Positions 38,997 through 53,708 of a DNA stretch of 58,491 bases are shown here, one piece after another. How positions within the stretch are numbered: the first letter of the stretch is position 1; each line of letters opens with the position of its first letter. This stretch comes from Aquificales bacterium (GTDB lineage: Bacteria; Aquificota; Aquificia; Aquificales; Aquificaceae): positions 37,923 through 96,413 of the forward strand of contig JALWBR010000018.1 in assembly GCA_027037055.1 (NCBI GenBank). The letters run 5' to 3'. The translations under genes and the position numbers were made by a program. The notes under the pieces are model-generated. The model was not told the origin of the DNA. It ran no database searches and saw nothing but the letters and a program-made list of their open reading frames with translations.

Positions 38997-39326
38997 ATGG
39001 TAAAAATTTCAGTCTATGCAATAGCTCTTCTTCTTACAATGCCCATGTTTTCTTTTACCAAGGATTTTAAACATGATGTGATCATATTCAAGAGGGAGGT
39101 TAAAAGCAGATCAAAAGTGGGAATGAAACCTGTGGTGTTTCCCCACAAGCTCCATGCTGAATCAATGAAATGCAACTCCTGTCACAACCAGCTTTTCAAA
39201 CCAAAATTGGGAGCTAATAAGATAACGATGAAAAAGATAATGGAAGGTCAAGCCTGTGGAGCATGTCATAACGGTGTTAAAGCTTGGCCCGCCTTCCATT
39301 GTGATAGGTGTCACAGGGGTAAATAG
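38997..39326 (+). CDS. Periplasmic triheme c7-type cytochrome
   Basis: A 109-residue exported protein (signal peptide about 1-20) with three heme motifs, CNSCH, CGACH and CDRCH. They lie in the c7-type triheme pattern: VVFPHKLH, then CNSCHNQLFKPKLGANKIT, an ACGACHNGVKAW segment, and the last CXXCH. The FPHxxH histidines would be distal ligands. It probably shuttles electrons in the periplasm. A strong SD (AAAGGAGGT) precedes the ATG. It opens the cluster of four cytochrome genes and one barrel gene, followed by a separate promoter at 39347. Confidence 0.9.
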   Translation: MVKISVYAIALLLTMPMFSFTKDFKHDVIIFKREVKSRSKVGMKPVVFPHKLHAESMKCNSCHNQLFKPKLGANKITMKKIMEGQACGACHNGVKAWPAFHCDRCHRGK

Positions 39327-39346
39327 TCGGTTGTTAAAATCCGATA

Positions 39347-39375
39347 TTGACATAAAGGATGCTAATCTGTATCAT
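39347..39375 (+). promoter_or_regulatory. Sigma-70 promoter of the first hexaheme cytochrome gene
   Basis: TTGACA (39347-39352), a 17-base spacer and TATCAT (39370-39375). The -35 is perfect and the -10 matches five of six. The start site would fall near 39382, giving a leader of about 28 bases with the SD GGAGGTGG. This is the best sigma-70 promoter in the window. Confidence 0.7.
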
Positions 39376-39409
39376 AAAAAGGATCATTTTTGAACGGAGG
39401 TGGTAGGAG

Positions 39410-40327
39410 ATGAAATTGGGGAAATCAATGATATTTTTTGTAATAATCCTTGGAACGCTCATAGTAGGTACATTTACTTTTGTCGGCAGTACGGATCTTG
39501 AATACGGTGACCTTGTTTTGGACAGCAAGATAGAAAGCATGAAAAAGGCGGGTGTAAAGCCCGTAGTGTTCCCGCACTGGTTCCATAGGATAAGGTTCAA
39601 GTGTAAGGTGTGCCACGAAGAGATATTTATTCTCAAAAAGGGAGCAAACGATATAACCATGAAAGCAATAATGGAAGGGGAGTTCTGCGGTAAATGTCAC
39701 AACGGTGTAATAGCGTGGGAACCCATCTACTGTGACAGGTGTCACAGATATGAACCCCCCGGTGAAGATAACAAAGTTGTAAAGATAGAAAAAGGTAAGA
39801 AATATGACCCGAATGACCCAAATAATCCCATATACCTCAGCGGTTTAACTAAGAAACTCGCAGGTACGGGTGATCCCAACAAGCCCGCGAGTCAATATTA
39901 CGAAGAAGGGCAAGACTGGCACCCTCAGGTGTTAAGGGAAGCGGGACTTCCCGTTGATAAATACGGTCTCGTTGACTGGGCAAAGGCGGTAAAAGAGGGT
40001 TATATAAATCCGAAGGGAACCCTTGATCCCAACGAGGAAGAGTTCCCCATAATGGATCTTGATATAGTTATTGAAGCAAAAAGTGATTATGTTAACGATG
40101 TAGTATTTCCTCATTGGATACATACTTACTGGCTGAGATGTGATGTTTGTCATCCCAAGATTTTTGTACCCGAAAGGGGTAAGAATCCTATGACAATGGT
40201 AGAGATAGCCCAAGGAAAGTGGTGCGGAAGATGCCACGGAAAGGTCGCATTTCCCCTCACTGAGTGTACAAGATGTCATGTGAAGCCCAAGGAAACCTCC
40301 GCTGCTGAAAACAAAACTCAGGAATAA
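39410..40327 (+). CDS. Hexaheme cytochrome with two c7-type triheme domains
   Basis: A 305-residue protein with an N-terminal hydrophobic signal (IFFVIILGTLIVGTFTF), so it is periplasmic or membrane-tethered. Domain one (about 50-120) has VVFPHWFH, CKVCH, CGKCH and CDRCH. Domain two (about 220-290) has VVFPHWIH, CDVCH, CGRCH and CTRCH. A linker of some 100 residues with DWAKAVKEGYINPKG separates them. It is a close paralogue of the next gene. It probably carries electrons between inner-membrane quinone oxidoreductases and the outer-membrane conduit encoded downstream. Its TAATGG end overlaps the next start. Confidence 0.9.
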   Translation: MKLGKSMIFFVIILGTLIVGTFTFVGSTDLEYGDLVLDSKIESMKKAGVKPVVFPHWFHRIRFKCKVCHEEIFILKKGANDITMKAIMEGEFCGKCHNGVIAWEPIYCDRCHRYEPPGEDNKVVKIEKGKKYDPNDPNNPIYLSGLTKKLAGTGDPNKPASQYYEEGQDWHPQVLREAGLPVDKYGLVDWAKAVKEGYINPKGTLDPNEEEFPIMDLDIVIEAKSDYVNDVVFPHWIHTYWLRCDVCHPKIFVPERGKNPMTMVEIAQGKWCGRCHGKVAFPLTECTRCHVKPKETSAAENKTQE

Positions 40328-41136
40328 TGGTTAGAAAGCTGGGGGTCCTTGTAGCGGGACCCCTCTTATTACTTACTGTTCTAATTTCTTTTGCACCGGG
40401 GGAGGAAGATATATGGGATGTTTATTACAATATCCTGAAGGCTAAAAAAGCTGACCTTCCCCCAGAATACGGTGACATAATAATGAAAAACAAAATAGAA
40501 AGTATGAAAAAAGCAGGTGTCCAACCGGTTATATTCCCTCACTGGTTTCACAGGATAAGGTTTAAATGTAAGGTTTGTCACGAAGACATATTTATTATGA
40601 AGAAGGGAGCTAACGATATAAATATGAAAAAGATAATGGAAGGTCAGTATTGCGGTAAATGTCACAACGGTGTCGTAGCTTGGGAACCCATTTACTGTGA
40701 CAGATGCCACAGATATGATTCTAAAAAAGCACAAAAAGAGCAATATGAAGCCTTAAAAATCCTGCCGAGGGACAAGCTCGGATTTATTGACTGGGCAAAA
40801 GCTGCAAAGGAGGGTCTTATAAAGCCAAAAGGCAAAATATATCCTACTGATCAAGAAGCCATACCGGAACAACCCTTTGACTTGGATGTGGTAATAGTAG
40901 CAAAGGCTGATTTCATGAAAGATGTCGTCTTCCCTCACTGGATACATACCTTCTGGCTCGGTTGTGCCAACTGCCATCCAAAAATATTCATACCTTCCGC
41001 AGGGGCAAACCCCATTTCTATGGTGGAGATATGGCAGGGAAAGTGGTGCGGAAGATGTCACGGAAAGGTCGCATTTCCTACATTTGATTGCACAAGATGT
41101 CATGTAAAGCCGAAAGAAAAAAAGAATAAAAATTAA
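40327..41136 (+). CDS. Hexaheme cytochrome, paralogue of the preceding gene
   Basis: A 269-residue exported protein with the same plan: a signal peptide, triheme domain one (VIFPHWFH, CKVCH, CGKCH, CDRCH), a shorter linker containing DWAKAAKEGLIKPKG, and triheme domain two (VVFPHWIH, CANCH, CGRCH, CTRCH). Near-identity of the heme-bearing segments with the preceding protein shows a tandem duplication. The start ATG shares a base with the upstream TAA stop. Keeping two copies suggests different partners or increased dosage; that is inference. Confidence 0.9.
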   Translation: MVRKLGVLVAGPLLLLTVLISFAPGEEDIWDVYYNILKAKKADLPPEYGDIIMKNKIESMKKAGVQPVIFPHWFHRIRFKCKVCHEDIFIMKKGANDINMKKIMEGQYCGKCHNGVVAWEPIYCDRCHRYDSKKAQKEQYEALKILPRDKLGFIDWAKAAKEGLIKPKGKIYPTDQEAIPEQPFDLDVVIVAKADFMKDVVFPHWIHTFWLGCANCHPKIFIPSAGANPISMVEIWQGKWCGRCHGKVAFPTFDCTRCHVKPKEKKNKN

Positions 41137-41199
41137 AACCATGAGGGTAAAGGAAAGGTTATATAATTATGGTGACAAACAAAAAAGGGGAGCAGGAAA

Positions 41200-42291
41200 A
41201 TGAAAAAATTTGCTTTAATGATAATACCTTTGGCAGGGGCAGTCATATATATCCTGCTTATTAACAATAACAGCATAGCCCAAGACCTTGAAGTTGCTCC
41301 CGATGGACTACCTATAATTAAGGATCTCGGTATGGTTTTCTCCTTTCAAGGAGATGCCCACTTGGCAGCGGAGGTGTGTGCTAATTGCCATCCTGATAGA
41401 TATAAAGAGTATATAAAAAGTCCCCACTTTAACAGGGAAGATCCGAGAGCTCCCATGGCAAAGTTTGATTGTGAAACATGCCACTTTCCGGGAAAAACGG
41501 GTAAACCCCATGTAGCAGCAGGCGGAGGAAGGGGTATAGGCGGTGTTATAAATCCCGCTGCGGAATCCCCCATCCCTGTGGAGGTGAAAAACGAAGTTTG
41601 TCTCCAGTGCCATGCAAGGTTTCCCTTGAGATTACCAAGGATAATGTGGCACGGTAGCATACATGAACAGAAGGGTTTAGCCTGTACAAACTGCCACAGG
41701 ATTCACTACGACGGTCAAGACAATCCCAAGCATCTTAAATTCCCAACCATACCCCAAGTATGCTTTCAATGTCACAAGCAAATAAAAGCACAGGTGGCAA
41801 AACCCTCCCACCATCCCATAAGGGAAGGAAAAGTGGTATGTACGGACTGTCATAACCCCCACGGTGCGGTCTCAGATAGGCTGTTAAATGCCAACCGTAT
41901 AAATGAAAAATGTTACCAATGTCACGCGGAGAAAAGAGGTCCCTTCCTTTGGGAACATCCGCCCGTTGTTGAAAAATGTATAAACTGCCACACACCCCAC
42001 GGATCAAATCACGACAAGTTACTTATAGCAAAAGTACCTTACCTGTGTCAAAGGTGTCATGCAACCGATATTATCCCAAAGAGATGTTCAGATTGCCACG
42101 CAAACAATATAGGTGGCGCACCCAACTTTGATCTTGAACACCCGACGAGACCTTACGGTATTCCTCAAGATAAACTACACCAGTCCATATATGCACATTC
42201 AAACAACAGAATGTTTTATCGTTCCTGTCTAAACTGTCACAATCAGATTCACGGCAGTAACCATCCATCGGGTAAATTCTTCCAGCGTTAA
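41200..42291 (+). CDS. MtrA/DmsE-type multiheme cytochrome with eleven CXXCH motifs
   Basis: A 363-residue periplasmic protein (signal about 1-28). CXXCH motifs start at residues 60, 91, 134, 162, 188, 214, 238, 260, 283, 296 and 343. The order, the paired CTDCHNPHG and CINCHTPHG repeats, and the end CLNCHNQIHGSNHPSGKFF mark the MtrA/PioA/DmsE family, which usually has ten hemes. These proteins form the heme wire inside an outer-membrane barrel. The barrel gene follows after 11 bases. A TATAAT at 41162-41167 may provide an extra promoter, but no -35 is evident. Confidence 0.92.
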   Translation: MKKFALMIIPLAGAVIYILLINNNSIAQDLEVAPDGLPIIKDLGMVFSFQGDAHLAAEVCANCHPDRYKEYIKSPHFNREDPRAPMAKFDCETCHFPGKTGKPHVAAGGGRGIGGVINPAAESPIPVEVKNEVCLQCHARFPLRLPRIMWHGSIHEQKGLACTNCHRIHYDGQDNPKHLKFPTIPQVCFQCHKQIKAQVAKPSHHPIREGKVVCTDCHNPHGAVSDRLLNANRINEKCYQCHAEKRGPFLWEHPPVVEKCINCHTPHGSNHDKLLIAKVPYLCQRCHATDIIPKRCSDCHANNIGGAPNFDLEHPTRPYGIPQDKLHQSIYAHSNNRMFYRSCLNCHNQIHGSNHPSGKFFQR

Positions 42292-42302
42292 GGAGGGATG
42301 GA

Positions 42303-44435
42303 ATGAAAAAAAGCATACTTATGTCCGCCCTACTGAGCTTGGGGGCAGGTGTAGTATTGGCACAGGACAGTACCCTGGATGGCAGTGTAGGAGTTGAGTA
42401 CAGAAATCTTTCGGGAAAGGGAGAAAAGGATTCCGCAAAATTCAATGAATACAGGGATTTAAAGGACGGATTTACCGGCGAGGTAAAGATGAAGTTTAGG
42501 TGGAAAGAAAAAATAGATGTAAGGCTTGATGCTACAAACATAGGTTTAAATGATCAGAAGATCCATCTTCTTTTTAATAAGATAGGACAGTTCAAACTTG
42601 AGGTTATATACGATAAAGTGCCTCATTTATTTTCCAAAAATGTAAGGTTCGGCTTCAGGGGTGTAGGAACAGGTGACCTTAAATGGAACAACGGAAGGAC
42701 ATCTTACATAGATATGGGTTTAATGAGGGATTGGTTAAAGGTTTACTTTGATATCGTTGCCTTTGATCCTCTCCTTAACTTCAGAATAGAATTTATAAAT
42801 GAAAAGAGAAAAGGTACAAGACCCTTTGGAGTTCTTTCTTACTTCGGCGTTGATCCTGTTCAGACAAGCGGTATAAGACACAGCGTAATAGAGGTCCCAG
42901 AACCCATAGACTACGATATTACAGATATAAGATTTATTACTGTCTTCAATTGGAGAAATTTTCAACTATACAGCAGTTATTACTACTCTGAATTCAAGAA
43001 TAACATTCAAGAGCTGAAGTGGGACAACCCCGAACCCAATGGAGCACCAAGGGGACTGCTTGATGTATATCCGAATACAACCCACAATAACATATCCTTT
43101 ACTGGAAACCTCTGGAAATTACCCCTTAACACAAAAATAACGGCGGTTTTCTCTAAGGGGGAATTCGTTCAAAATGATAAACTGCTTCCTTACACAATAA
43201 ACCAAAACGCGTATTCAGGTACACAATATGAGAATAATCCTCCCGATCCACCCGATCCTGGTAAGATGAAGGTGGAATCTACAGTTTATGATTTTACAAT
43301 GGTTTCAACACCGTTAAAGCGATTTGATATTAAATTCCGTCACCGATTTTACGACTGGAACAATAAAACAGCCATAGTTGTATTTCCGGGATATGTTAAG
43401 GTAGATGTCAGATGGCACGAAATACCGGCAATTAACCTCCCACTCAGTTTTAACACAAATACAACATGGCTTGACATGGGATACAGGATAAGCGATTCCA
43501 TGAAGTTATCCCTCGGATATACGATTGATAGAAAGGATAGAAAAATTTATGAGGTAGTTGATCCATCTTATTACTATAAACCTACCGTAAGGGCTGTAAC
43601 ACAATCTGTTGATAGGATATATACCGTTAATTTGGACATAAAACCCATACCTTGGAAGTGGCTTGATATAAGATCTTCCTATATAAGATCGGTTCAGAGG
43701 GGCAGATACAGGGTTGACGATCCTATAGTTTATAAATACTGGAAGTACGATGAAGCGGACAGGGACAGAGACAGATTGCAACTTATAGTAACAATGTTCC
43801 CCATGAAATATCTCGGAATGGCAACCGGTAAGGAAGGATCCTATGAAAAACCCCTCATAATTACGACCCATATAATAGTAGGTAAGGATTCCTTTGTAAA
43901 CTCCCCGGTGGGTCTTCTTGAAGACTCACATATAATCTACGGTATAGATATAGACTATGTTCCCGTAAAAAGGGTAACCCTAAACGCCTATTACCTACAC
44001 GAGGAATTTAAAAACAAGCAAAAAGGTTGGGAGGAACAAGATCCGAATAAGGCTTGGATAGTAGAAGGGATTGACAAGGACAGCACCCTCGGAGTCGGTA
44101 TAAACTTTAAAGTCATACCACAAAAGCTTGATATGGATCTCAAATATGCCTATGCAATGACGGATGGTACAATAAAGCCCTCCGGCTTCGCGGTCCTATC
44201 AATGGTTGATGATTCGGAAAGGCATACCTTAAACCTTAATTTCAAATACAAGGTAAGAAAGTTCTTACATGTAGATCTCGGAGTATTCTGGGAATCCTTC
44301 CGATTCAAGGATTACAATAAAGAAGGATTTGAAAATTATGCTTATGGACAAGACGGTAACTACTTTACGGGCGGAGCACTGATTCAGGATTATAATGTTA
44401 CCATGATATACAGCAAGCTTACCTATAAGTTTTGA
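42303..44435 (+). CDS. MtrB/PioB-type outer-membrane beta-barrel
   Basis: A 710-residue protein with a signal peptide (LLSLGAGVVLAQ) and a long run of alternating amphipathic strands ending in YSKLTYKF, the terminal aromatic of outer-membrane barrels. The opening GSVGVEYRNLSGKGEKDSAKFNEYRDLKDG resembles the MtrB/PioB start, with the family's EYRD-type segment. Such barrels sheathe an MtrA-type heme wire and let electrons cross the outer membrane. No N-terminal CXXC of the Shewanella MtrB kind is present. The SD AAGGAGG precedes the ATG. The last 13 bases overlap the convergent regulator gene. Confidence 0.85.
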   Translation: MKKSILMSALLSLGAGVVLAQDSTLDGSVGVEYRNLSGKGEKDSAKFNEYRDLKDGFTGEVKMKFRWKEKIDVRLDATNIGLNDQKIHLLFNKIGQFKLEVIYDKVPHLFSKNVRFGFRGVGTGDLKWNNGRTSYIDMGLMRDWLKVYFDIVAFDPLLNFRIEFINEKRKGTRPFGVLSYFGVDPVQTSGIRHSVIEVPEPIDYDITDIRFITVFNWRNFQLYSSYYYSEFKNNIQELKWDNPEPNGAPRGLLDVYPNTTHNNISFTGNLWKLPLNTKITAVFSKGEFVQNDKLLPYTINQNAYSGTQYENNPPDPPDPGKMKVESTVYDFTMVSTPLKRFDIKFRHRFYDWNNKTAIVVFPGYVKVDVRWHEIPAINLPLSFNTNTTWLDMGYRISDSMKLSLGYTIDRKDRKIYEVVDPSYYYKPTVRAVTQSVDRIYTVNLDIKPIPWKWLDIRSSYIRSVQRGRYRVDDPIVYKYWKYDEADRDRDRLQLIVTMFPMKYLGMATGKEGSYEKPLIITTHIIVGKDSFVNSPVGLLEDSHIIYGIDIDYVPVKRVTLNAYYLHEEFKNKQKGWEEQDPNKAWIVEGIDKDSTLGVGINFKVIPQKLDMDLKYAYAMTDGTIKPSGFAVLSMVDDSERHTLNLNFKYKVRKFLHVDLGVFWESFRFKDYNKEGFENYAYGQDGNYFTGGALIQDYNVTMIYSKLTYKF

Positions 44436-45874: not shown

Positions 45875-45890
45875 TGGCATGTTAAATGCA
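45875..45890 (+). promoter_or_regulatory. Sigma-54 (-24/-12) promoter of the sulfur operon
   Basis: TGGCATGTTAAATGCA matches the consensus TGGCACGNNNNTTGCA with the invariant GG and GC at the correct spacing and only two departures. Transcription would start near 45902. The reading frame beginning at ATG 45886 lies inside the -12 box, which argues that translation begins at 45916 instead, where GGAGGTG precedes the ATG. Confidence 0.75.
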
Positions 45891-45915
45891 ATATCTCAAA
45901 TACGGAGGTGATTCC

Positions 45916-48117
45916 ATGAAGGGCAGGTTATTAAACGCTTCTTGGATTGAAGATGTTGAATACATAAAAAAGCTTGTAGATGGATACATTAAGGGTGAAA
46001 TAGATGAACATCAATTCAAGAAGGAGAGATTAAAAAACGGTATATACGGTCAAAGGCAGAAGGGTTTCTTTATGGTAAGGGTGAAAGTACCCGGAGGTGA
46101 AATAACACCAGAACAGCTTAAAACACTCGCAGAGATAGGAGACAGGTATTCAAACGGTATATTACATATAACAACAAGACAGGATATACAATACCACTGG
46201 GTAAAGCTTGAGGATATACCCCAAGTTGTAGAAATTATAAACGAGTGCGGATTAACAACAAAGGACGCTTGCGGTGATACGGTAAGGAATGTTACCTCAT
46301 GTTACCTTTCTGGAATATGCCCCCTTGAATTAATAAACGCGGGTCAATGTGCAAGGATAACAACGGAGACATTCCTCGGCATATACAGAAACCTACCACG
46401 GAAGTTTAAGATAACCTTCTCCGGTTGTGAAAAGGATTGTGCTTATGCAAGATTCAACGATGTGGGATTAATCGCAACTGTTAAAGAAAATAAACACGGC
46501 TTTAGAGTATATGTAGGAGGAGGGCAGGGAGATACACCGTATATAGGTAATCTCCTGATAGACTTTGTAGAGCCTGAATACATCCCGAGTATAATAAAAG
46601 CGGTACTTGAGGTTTTTAACAAACACGGAGATAGGAAGAACAAAAGGAGAAACAGGCTAAAGTTCCTTATAGAAAGGATAGGATTTGAAGAATTTAAAAA
46701 CCTCTTCTGGGAAGAATACAATAAAATAGCGGAGGAGGTAAAAGACTTTTCTCCAGAAGTTTTCACCCCTCGCGGAGATTTTCCTTTCGGAAATCCCATA
46801 ATTCAAAAGGACGGCAGATATGCCTTAAATATACTTTTAAGAAAGGGCAACATAACCTCACCCGAGGTTGAAACAATTGCGGATATAGGTATAAGGTACT
46901 CCCTAAGCATAAGATTGACCCAGGATCAAAATATACTCCTTTATAACATACCCGAGGAGTATGTTAGTGAAATAAGGAATACACTTACAGCACACGGTTT
47001 TGATCTTGAAGGAGCGGGAAGTATAAGGGATATAGTATGTTGTCCAGGTTCGGAGACATGCAGTCTCGGGATAACTTCTTCACGCGGGGTTACGGAAGCC
47101 ATAGAGAAAATAGTAGATAAATTTTCCCACCTACCCGTAAGGATAAAGATAAGCGGTTGTCCAAACTCATGCGGTCATCACCATATAGCGGATATAGGTC
47201 TTCACGGAGTTGCCAAAAAGATAAACGGAAAACTCGCCCCCCACTATGTTTTTCACTTCGGAGGAACACCCACAAAGATAGGAGAAAGATCCCTCAAGAT
47301 ACCTGCTAAGAATGTGCCTACAGCGATAGAGGATATCCTTAGCTATTATGAAGCACTGAAAAGGGAAGGTGAAACATTTACAGAATTCCTAAGCAGGGTG
47401 GGTGAGAAAGATCTCAGGGGGATCCTTCAAAAGCATCTGCACCTTAGGGAAGGCGTTGACTACTTTAAGGATTTCGGTTCCGATAAGGAGTTCTCCTTAG
47501 AGGAAGTAGGAGTAGGTGAATGTATGGGCATAGTTGCTGATATGGTTGAAACATCAATAAGTGAAGCGGAAAGGATAGTCTCTCAAGCAAAGGCACATAT
47601 TCAGCAAGGATTTGAAGAAGATGCATATGTACACCTTAAAGAAGCCCTTATAGTATTGTGCAAAGGAATGCTTGTACCCTTCGGTGTAAAAGCGGAAGGA
47701 GAGGAAGCCATATTTAAATTTGCTGAACATGTTATAGGAAGAAGGTATATAGATGAAAAATTTTTGAATTTGTTGAAAAAGGAAAATCCATCAGTCGGGG
47801 AGGTTGAAGAGTTCATAAGTGCTTGCAGAAAAGCCTATGAGCTTCTTAAAAGGCAAACAAAAGAGAAATTGGAAAAAGGCATAAAGGATAAAGCAAGAAA
47901 AGAGATAATGGATCTCAGAAATGAAGAATGCCCGTACAACTTCATACTTGCAAAACAAAAAATAGAATCAATGGAGATAGGTTCCGTCCTTGTTGTACTG
48001 CTTAAAGACGAAGAATCAGTAATGAGTGTTTCCGCAAGTATGAGGGATCATGGCCATGAAGTTATAGATGTAGATAAAGAAAATTCCCATTATGTATTGA
48101 CAATAAGGAGGAGGTAG
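45916..48117 (+). CDS. Sulfite (nitrite) reductase with two complete Cys motifs, fused to a TusA-like domain
   Basis: A 733-residue protein. Residues 1-500 are a NirA/Sir-type sirohaem reductase built of two similar halves. The N-terminal half has C129-x5-C135 (CYLSGIC) and C171-x3-C175 (GCEKDC); the C-terminal half has C376-x5-C382 (CPGSETC) and C415-x3-C419 (GCPNSC). Usual enzymes keep the motif only in the second half. Residues about 505-655 are helical. Residues 664-733 match TusA (MDLRNEECP, with C672, then SMEIGSVLVVLL and DHGHEVIDVD). Sulfite is the likely substrate, as APS reductase and ATP sulfurylase genes follow. The ATG at 45916 is supported by its SD and the sigma-54 promoter. 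Confidence 0.88.
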   Translation: MKGRLLNASWIEDVEYIKKLVDGYIKGEIDEHQFKKERLKNGIYGQRQKGFFMVRVKVPGGEITPEQLKTLAEIGDRYSNGILHITTRQDIQYHWVKLEDIPQVVEIINECGLTTKDACGDTVRNVTSCYLSGICPLELINAGQCARITTETFLGIYRNLPRKFKITFSGCEKDCAYARFNDVGLIATVKENKHGFRVYVGGGQGDTPYIGNLLIDFVEPEYIPSIIKAVLEVFNKHGDRKNKRRNRLKFLIERIGFEEFKNLFWEEYNKIAEEVKDFSPEVFTPRGDFPFGNPIIQKDGRYALNILLRKGNITSPEVETIADIGIRYSLSIRLTQDQNILLYNIPEEYVSEIRNTLTAHGFDLEGAGSIRDIVCCPGSETCSLGITSSRGVTEAIEKIVDKFSHLPVRIKISGCPNSCGHHHIADIGLHGVAKKINGKLAPHYVFHFGGTPTKIGERSLKIPAKNVPTAIEDILSYYEALKREGETFTEFLSRVGEKDLRGILQKHLHLREGVDYFKDFGSDKEFSLEEVGVGECMGIVADMVETSISEAERIVSQAKAHIQQGFEEDAYVHLKEALIVLCKGMLVPFGVKAEGEEAIFKFAEHVIGRRYIDEKFLNLLKKENPSVGEVEEFISACRKAYELLKRQTKEKLEKGIKDKARKEIMDLRNEECPYNFILAKQKIESMEIGSVLVVLLKDEESVMSVSASMRDHGHEVIDVDKENSHYVLTIRRR

Positions 48118-52368: not shown

Positions 52369-52389
52369 GGTGTAAATCTTTTTTACACC
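52369..52389. promoter_or_regulatory. Palindrome across the start point of the Cyc2-like gene, likely operator
   Basis: Perfect 8-base arms GGTGTAAA (52369-52376) and TTTACACC (52382-52389) with a 5-base TCTTT centre. It begins 1 base after the -10 box and covers the expected start site, a usual repressor position. As RNA it could also form a 5' hairpin. It is unlikely to be the proB terminator, since no U tract follows. Confidence 0.5.
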
Positions 52390-52418
52390 TGTTCAAATTT
52401 CCTTAAGGGAGGTGCAAA

Positions 52419-53708
52419 ATGGAAAAGCTTAGGTTCCTTCTGAGTTTGGTTGCGCTAACCACACTTTTCATATTTTATGATCTGTCTTACGGCGTTCCGT
52501 CTTTTGCGAGGCAAACGGGTTTCTCCTGCAGTACATGTCATACCATACCCCCGAGGCTGAACAAATTCGGAACCCTTTATAAGATAAGCGGTTATACATC
52601 GGGTGTTAATATAAAACAGATTGATATAGGCGACGGTAAAACATTAAATAATTTCAATCCAATTGCAATAAGGGTTATTTCCCTGCTATCCGAAAAGAAA
52701 TCCTACAAAGATGAAGCAGAAACCCTCAAAGTAGAAAATGTTCTTATATACTTTGCGGGTAAGGTAAGTGATGATGTAGGAGCATTCATAGTCCCGAATC
52801 TTGAAGCTTCTGGAGATCACGGCTATGAGGCGGGCGTTCATGTTGCAAGATTGGCTTTTGTAAAAGACACTGGAGCCAATGTATTCGGTATAGTGGGCGG
52901 TATAACAAGCCCCGCAGGTGTTGATCCATTCAACACCCTTGATCCCATGAGAACAGAAATGTTCCCCGTTCAAGCGCCGATGCCCTACTTTATGTCCATG
53001 GATGCAAACGGTGACGGGCAGGCTGAACAAATGGATATGGGTTCTATGATGCTCTTCCCCTCTTTGTATGGTCACGACCAAAAGGGTATTTCAGCTTATG
53101 CACTTATAAAGAGTATGGTCTATGTTAATGCGGGTATATATACAGGTGGTGGTGGAACCGTTATGGAAAACATGAAGGCGGAAGAGCTTGCGGGAGGCGA
53201 TTTTGACTTTTACGGAAGGATAGCCTTCATGCCGAATTTGAAGGTGGCTGATGTCAATGTTGGTATATTCGGTTATTCGGGAAGGGATAAGATCCATGAT
53301 TCTGGAGAAAATAAAAATGTCAGCTCCTACGGAATTGATATAGGAGTGCAGGCACCGATAACTTCTTCCCTGATGGCTGAGCTTCTTGCAAACTATACAA
53401 CAGGAAAAATAGGAGAGGATGAAGCAAGCGGTTATCAGTTATGGGGAACCCTTTACTTCAAAAGAATGATTGCCCTGACCCTCGGCTACGGTGCAAGTGA
53501 TAGCACCCTTATGAATATGAACGCTATGGGTAGCAATCCCGAAATGAGAATGGGAGGTAAACAAAGCGGTATAACCGCCCATATCTCCTATGCATTCAGA
53601 CCGAATGTTAGATTCGGTGTTGAATACTCCTCCGTAAATACGGAGTTCAGCGGAACAGATTACGAAAACATAAACTCCACAGCCCTACTCCTTGATCTTG
53701 ATTTCTAA
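52419..53708 (+). CDS. Cyc2-like fused monoheme cytochrome / outer-membrane porin
   Basis: A 429-residue protein with a signal peptide (about 1-25) followed at once by a heme motif, FSCSTCH (C37, C40, H41), in the context FARQTGFSCSTCH...LNKFGTLYKISGY. This is very like the N-terminus of Cyc2 iron oxidases, where FARQTG, CXXCH and FG..FK..GY are conserved. The remaining 370 residues form a beta-barrel ending LLLDLDF. Cyc2 takes electrons from Fe(II) at the cell surface. Two Met-rich loops (MDMGSMM; MNMNAMG...MRMGG) and a calcium-like DANGDGQAE are unusual. Function by similarity, not proven. Confidence 0.75.
   Translation: MEKLRFLLSLVALTTLFIFYDLSYGVPSFARQTGFSCSTCHTIPPRLNKFGTLYKISGYTSGVNIKQIDIGDGKTLNNFNPIAIRVISLLSEKKSYKDEAETLKVENVLIYFAGKVSDDVGAFIVPNLEASGDHGYEAGVHVARLAFVKDTGANVFGIVGGITSPAGVDPFNTLDPMRTEMFPVQAPMPYFMSMDANGDGQAEQMDMGSMMLFPSLYGHDQKGISAYALIKSMVYVNAGIYTGGGGTVMENMKAEELAGGDFDFYGRIAFMPNLKVADVNVGIFGYSGRDKIHDSGENKNVSSYGIDIGVQAPITSSLMAELLANYTTGKIGEDEASGYQLWGTLYFKRMIALTLGYGASDSTLMNMNAMGSNPEMRMGGKQSGITAHISYAFRPNVRFGVEYSSVNTEFSGTDYENINSTALLLDLDF

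Follow-up and report, generated by a model that had tools for sequence, protein, structure and literature searches.

The window, by which we mean the whole 58,491-nucleotide stretch of DNA analysed here, belongs to a 1.67 Mb Aquificota genome assembly. It encodes, with a glutamate-5-kinase-like gene and a Ppx/GppA gene as neighbours, a protein (MEKLRFLLSLVALTTLFIFYDLSYG / VPSFARQTGFSCSTCHTIPPRLNKFGTLYKISGYT, ending in LLLDLDF) in which a putative signal peptide precedes a single c-type heme site; the sequence FGTLYKISGYT follows the PRL motif and leads into a long C-terminal part with a terminal Phe. The features of this gene, together with those of an MtrAB-like cluster in the same window, are collected in Table 1.

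Table 1. Features of the window discussed in the text (positions of the whole stretch)
Feature	Coordinates	Strand	Details and basis
Clade-A Cyc2-like cytochrome-porin	52419..53708	+	429 aa, ATG start
Putative signal peptide, residues 1-25	52419..52493	+	Cleavage after SYG; by inspection of MEKLRFLLSLVALTTLFIFYDLSYG
PSFARQT motif of Cyc2 heme domain, residues 27-33	52497..52517	+	Invariant in clade A; published motif (PMC8406198)
Heme c site CSTCH, residues 37-41	52527..52541	+	Sequence; sole CXXCH of the protein
PRL motif 3′ of heme site, residues 45-47	52551..52559	+	Clade-A alignment and published motif
Met-rich insert with EF-hand-like loop DANGDGQAEQMD, residues 188-211	52980..53051	+	Alignment and Met count; only in the window's genus
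Second Met-rich stretch MNMNAMGSNPEMRM, residues 365-378	53511..53552	+	Alignment and Met count
Ribosome-binding site GGGAGG	52407..52412	+	Sequence; conserved in genus
Inverted repeat GTGTAAA-N5-TTTACAC, possible operator	52370..52388	+	49 to 31 bp before start codon
DmsE-family decaheme cytochrome (MtrA-like)	41200..42291	+	TIGR03508 254.6 bits, cut-off 192.2
MtrB/PioB-type barrel	42303..44435	+	PF11854 241 bits, cut-off 23

Orthologues of the window gene are present in three other genomes of the same genus at 93–94% identity, with dN/dS values of 0.03–0.07 (dS 0.46–0.75). Given this conservation and these ratios, the open reading frame is no chance ORF but a genuine gene on which purifying selection acts strongly. 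The heme region is nearly invariant in more distant relatives within the Aquificota.

Cyc2 proteins have been defined by Keffer et al. (PMC8406198) by an AXPXFAR[QK][TY] motif (screened for as PXFAR[QK][TY]), CXXCH, PXL, a length of at least 365 residues and a fused 16-strand porin. The window protein carries VPSFARQT directly before its heme site, a single CXXCH followed by the PXL motif (CSTCH-TIP-PRL) and, as judged by inspection, an N-terminal signal peptide; at 429 residues it also exceeds the length limit. The outermost A of AXPXFAR is replaced by G in the window's genus and is retained in the other genera of the group to which the protein belongs (clade A, below). With A. ferrooxidans Cyc2, Mariprofundus Cyc2PV-1 and Leptospirillum Cyt572 it has in common the signal peptide, PXFAR[QK][TY], one CXXCH, PXL, a length above 365 residues and a fused barrel-type domain; it differs from them in its separate Aquificota clade, in the A to G change, in the copper-cluster neighbourhood of its relatives, and in the Met-rich loops and EF-hand-like insert found in its genus.

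The C-terminal part was examined with profiles built only from the region after the heme domain and compared by hhalign. The clade-A barrel profile matched that of the proteobacterial cytochrome-porins with 97.6% probability (E 4.5e-12, 293 columns), whereas the MtrB of the window and a TolC-type protein, used as controls, gave no match, which argues for a homologous cytochrome-porin beyond a shared heme motif. Over the full length, clade A matched plasmid-borne proteobacterial Cyc2-like proteins at 99.8%. A barrel-type C-terminal domain is therefore predicted, based on the homology of the barrel part and the C-terminal Phe. Structure prediction was of little help, with an AlphaFold model made from three sequences only reaching a pLDDT of 27, and a crude strand scan giving 10 weak peaks, which at the lowest threshold did not exceed those of shuffled sequences. 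Sequence and profile searches of Pfam, NCBIfam and the PDB with the window protein returned nothing useful, no Pfam or NCBIfam model covering it, and no relatives were found among viral contigs. Judged by motif and profile, the window protein is a cytochrome-porin of the Cyc2 type and belongs, as a divergent member, to the Cyc2 family in its broad sense.

Across the 136 Aquificota genomes searched, several kinds of Cyc2-like protein are present. The window type, which we call clade A and which bears the signature SC[SNA]TCHTIPPRLN, occurs in four genera (g1, the window's, and g3, g11 and g12). In a tree of 29 sequences, in which the proteobacterial homologues are six from plasmids, Cyc2 of the A. 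ferrooxidans chromosome and its counterparts in Mariprofundus and Leptospirillum lying outside the set, clade A forms one group (support 99/99) within which g1 is sister to the remainder (97/98), and the plasmid homologues form a clade of their own (100/99) apart from it. The N-termini of clade-A proteins outside the window's genus (L009, L011, L012, L013, L014 and L016) share, after the hydrophobic stretch and ahead of the heme domain, a conserved N[EQK]Y[FYI][NR]SxCPEL[PS]KE whose Cys is invariant; this element is absent from the window's genus.

The plasmid-borne genes, annotated 'cytochrome C' (Caballeronia, Ideonella, Methylocystis, Acidiphilium and the At. ferrooxidans plasmid CP084173), encode proteins of the same architecture as the window protein but differ in their surroundings: in most of the plasmids small c-type cytochromes lie downstream of them, in one a HiPIP gene lies upstream, and none is accompanied by copper genes. 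The copies on the Acidithiobacillus ferrooxidans plasmid and on Acidiphilium pACRY03 (L063 and L064) have equal scores over one and the same query region, and their neighbours and replicon types match, a likeness that we ascribe to recent plasmid sharing or contamination.

A sequence-only reading of the locus had described a signal peptide, FARQTG, a single CXXCH and FG..K..GY ahead of a barrel, as in the Cyc2 iron oxidase. This plan is found exactly as described, and the assignment to Cyc2-like cytochrome-porins stands on motif, length and full-length profile homology; the function of iron oxidase, by comparison, is not established. The same reading had named a position outside Cyc2, with porins of a different role, as the result that would speak against it, and this has come about in part, in that clade A stands apart (99/99) from the proteobacterial Cyc2-like proteins retrieved and that in nine of the ten genomes outside g1 its members lie beside copper-efflux genes. 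We accordingly keep the cytochrome-porin and place it on a copper-linked branch of the family, with a role in iron unproven.

The neighbourhoods of clade-A genes were read as far as the contigs extend. Copper-efflux genes adjoin the clade-A gene in nine of the ten genomes outside the window's genus: in eight a gene for a CopB-type copper ATPase lies 0.3–1.5 kb away, in the ninth a CusB gene lies at 1.4 kb, and only in G018 is there no copper link. The one ATPase scanned scores well above the cut-off of TIGR01511. In both G062, where the contig ends in a fragment of the ATPase, and G068, one or more genes lie between the ATPase and clade-A genes. The best-resolved cluster contains, besides CusA and CusB, an outer-membrane factor of the OEP type, NosL, DUF411 and DUF2231 proteins and a Met-rich protein; genes of these kinds, small Met-rich proteins included, surround the clade-A gene where the contig extends far enough. 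Across the phylum, clade A is found in 12/37 genomes with a strong CopB match and in 2/99 without (Fisher 2e-6, ignoring phylogeny). Five genomes share a conserved intergenic region between divergently transcribed CopB-type ATPase and clade-A genes, with TTTAACGTTAAATAAAC in its middle, and four of the five have an FNR-like TGAT-N4-ATCA about 30 bp before the cytochrome start. In the G062 locus (L037:1928-6389, minus strand) cox2, cox1, SCO1 and the clade-A gene follow one another in that order and on the same strand. This arrangement supports a flow of electrons to oxygen and recalls the rus operon, in which cyc2 is found with oxidase genes.

In literature searches we found no title or abstract claiming a link between Cyc2 and copper; one paper, in its copper passages, raises the possibility that PcoAB is a porin-MCO system. 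For CopG-like proteins, which have genetic links to copA and cusCBA, a role as Cu(I) oxidisers has been proposed (PMC7558416). Because the DUF411 neighbour in one of the clusters resembles these proteins, in our reading, a Cu(I)-oxidising function may already exist there. Multicopper oxidases occur beside cusB in some copper clusters that have no clade-A gene, and no Cu-oxidase_3 multicopper oxidase was found in the window genome; strict mutual exclusion of clade A and multicopper oxidases per genome was considered and rejected, as several genomes have both.

In the window's genus itself, no copper-efflux genes adjoin the clade-A gene, which has either moved away from them or never joined them. 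The window genome has its own cusC-cusB-Met-rich-nosL-copB-cusA cluster on another contig, with no clade-A gene in it, and no operator of at least 10 bases is common to this cluster and the window gene. The inverted repeat upstream of the window gene is the single match in the window; its arms are kept in all four genomes of the genus, with differing spacers, and the same repeat, with one changed outer base, lies upstream of the clade-A gene of G018, which is of another genus and not copper-linked. Elsewhere in the genome there are 23 matches with up to two mismatches, against 15 for a reversed control, most of them near chance. One copy with one mismatch is located about 30 bp before a gene (L078:128-2698, minus strand; contig C39:14127-16697) for an 857-residue lipoprotein-like cytochrome with about seven CXXCH sites.

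The clade-A proteins of the window's genus are distinguished by their methionine content. Each of the four has 19–20 Met and four MxM motifs, compared with 1–9 Met and no MxM in their clade relatives; as a proportion this is 4.9%, against 0.3–2.2% in the relatives and 2.1% in the proteins of the window, and among the members examined only these four are Met-rich. The insert specific to the genus (MPYFMSMDANGDGQAEQMDMGSMM) contains the EF-hand-like loop. Met-rich motifs of the MxM kind are usual Cu(I) ligands, and the loops of the window protein have the look of copper-binding sites of that type. The copper neighbourhood of the relatives and the Met composition of the window-genus proteins point independently in the same direction.

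The sequence-only reading had also placed the gene close to an MtrAB-like cluster, which is indeed present 8 kb upstream, both its decaheme cytochrome and its barrel scoring above cut-off (TIGR03508 and PF11854, respectively). The MtrB-type protein scores 190 with TIGR03509, below the cut-off of 240; the pairing of a decaheme cytochrome with an MtrB/PioB barrel is that of an MtrAB/PioAB conduit. Three cytochrome c7-type proteins are encoded in front, the whole cluster spanning 38997-44435. MtrAB, PioAB and MtoAB are outer-membrane electron conduits, as is proposed for the window protein, but they consist of a separate decaheme protein and barrel, and the barrel is not homologous by profile to that of the window protein. 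MtrB is present in all four genomes of the window's genus and otherwise gives one weak match among the 136 Aquificota genomes, a distribution that suggests lateral gain. Between this cluster and the window gene, a 743-residue sulfite/nitrite reductase-like protein with a C-terminal TusA domain (45886-48117), which scores below all NCBIfam equivalog cut-offs, is followed by PAPS reductase-like, permease-like and sulfate adenylyltransferase genes.

Two outer-membrane electron routes had been proposed for this DNA. Both are present, but the genome has three, a second, divergent Cyc2-like gene having been missed; it lies elsewhere (L004:1477-2709; contig C33:20335-21567) and encodes 411 residues (FARQMNTSCNTCHSPHSFPSLN). 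Its product, assigned to clade B, has the same plan as the window protein and differs in FARQMNTSCNTCH, with two extra residues before FP, in its clade, in its low identity (about 24%) and in the lack of a copper link, not being near copper genes. Conserved within the genus, the gene also has relatives in two other genera; each of the four genomes of the window's genus carries MtrB and both Cyc2-like genes. With MtrB/PioB and the second Cyc2-like gene genus-wide, and a DmsE-family decaheme cytochrome as partner of the MtrB of the window, extracellular electron transfer is plausible in this genus, which seems to have the equipment for it; iron or minerals would fit.

Taking these observations together, we favour a reading, with a probability of roughly 0.45, in which the window protein acts as an outer-membrane, one-electron oxidase of metals at the cell surface, its substrate more likely being Cu(I) than Fe(II); the membrane position, the direction of electron flow and the substrate are what we infer. 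A reduced metal ion would reach the heme inside the barrel or at its mouth, and the heme would pass the electron to c-type cytochromes of the periplasm, from which an aa3-type oxidase would receive it; in the window genome a c-type cytochrome gene adjoins the aa3-type oxidase operon. In the window's genus, the Met-rich loops and the EF-hand-like calcium loop may gather soft metal. The protein might thereby serve as an outer-membrane cuprous oxidase, or as a copper-handling redox porin, complementing export by CopB and CusCBA. The narrower proposal that it is a heme-based outer-membrane cuprous oxidase, representing a branch of Cyc2 with Cu(I) in place of Fe(II) as its substrate, we regard as possible but doubtful. 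Under this proposal the cytochrome and the respiratory chain would do what CueO does with copper centres and oxygen; the window protein would share the oxidation of Cu(I), and its clade relatives the position in copper clusters, with the multicopper cuprous oxidases CueO and PcoA, although the latter are unrelated, use copper centres rather than heme, and act in the periplasm rather than the outer membrane.

Several points weigh against copper: in the window's genus the gene lies away from copper genes, a high Met content can arise for other reasons, the copper neighbours of the relatives could reflect a common habitat or induction and not the substrate, and a DUF411 (CopG-like) protein or multicopper oxidases could already oxidise Cu(I) in several of these genomes. 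To our knowledge, moreover, all biochemically tested members of the Cyc2 family were tested with iron. Genus-wide MtrAB points to general extracellular electron transfer, and the presence of MtrB, almost absent from the rest of the phylum, and of the second Cyc2-like gene in 4/4 genomes of the genus is likewise in keeping with a Cyc2 iron oxidase, which would oxidise dissolved Fe(II) at the cell surface and pass the electrons into respiration. The published motif and length rules and the full-length profile match to Cyc2-like proteins, one of them on an Acidithiobacillus ferrooxidans plasmid, agree with this assignment, and the occurrence of Aquificae cyc2 genes in vent chimneys is on record (PMC11333457). 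We nonetheless judge it on balance unlikely, considering the separate clade, the sister genera that hold the gene with copper efflux, the Met-rich loops and the lack of an iron gene adjoining the window gene; outside cluster 1 of the three published clusters, moreover, the function of Cyc2 has been called less certain (PMC8406198).

The copper-efflux neighbours of the relatives and the MtrAB of the window's genus could also be accommodated if the electrons came from metal-sulfide minerals or other solids, such as the Cu-Fe sulfides of chimneys, with the copper genes of the relatives handling the copper released. A link between cyc2 genes and the oxidation of sulfide minerals in chimneys has been described (PMC7329443); for barrels with a single heme, however, dissolved and not solid donors are predicted (PMC8406198), and we consider this origin of the electrons distinctly improbable. 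More improbable again is a redox-active outer-membrane pore for the passage or sensing of metal, for example in copper export, in which the heme would be a gate or sensor with no respiratory role. The barrel domain, the single heme, and the P-type ATPase and RND pump among the copper-cluster neighbours would suit such a pore; the better-resolved clusters, however, already contain CusC-type outer-membrane factors, and the clade-A gene of G062 lies after genes for a terminal oxidase.

Metagenome studies, those of vents among them, take Cyc2 as a marker gene of microbial iron oxidation. A copper-tied clade that passes the Cyc2 motif test would mean that motif-based 'iron oxidiser' calls can be wrong, and would make the choice of substrate in the Cyc2 family testable with thermostable proteins. 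If the role is in copper, Cu(I) detoxification would gain a heme-based route in addition to those of the multicopper and CopG proteins; on this view, what the window protein oxidises at the surface of this thermophilic vent bacterium may be copper and not iron.
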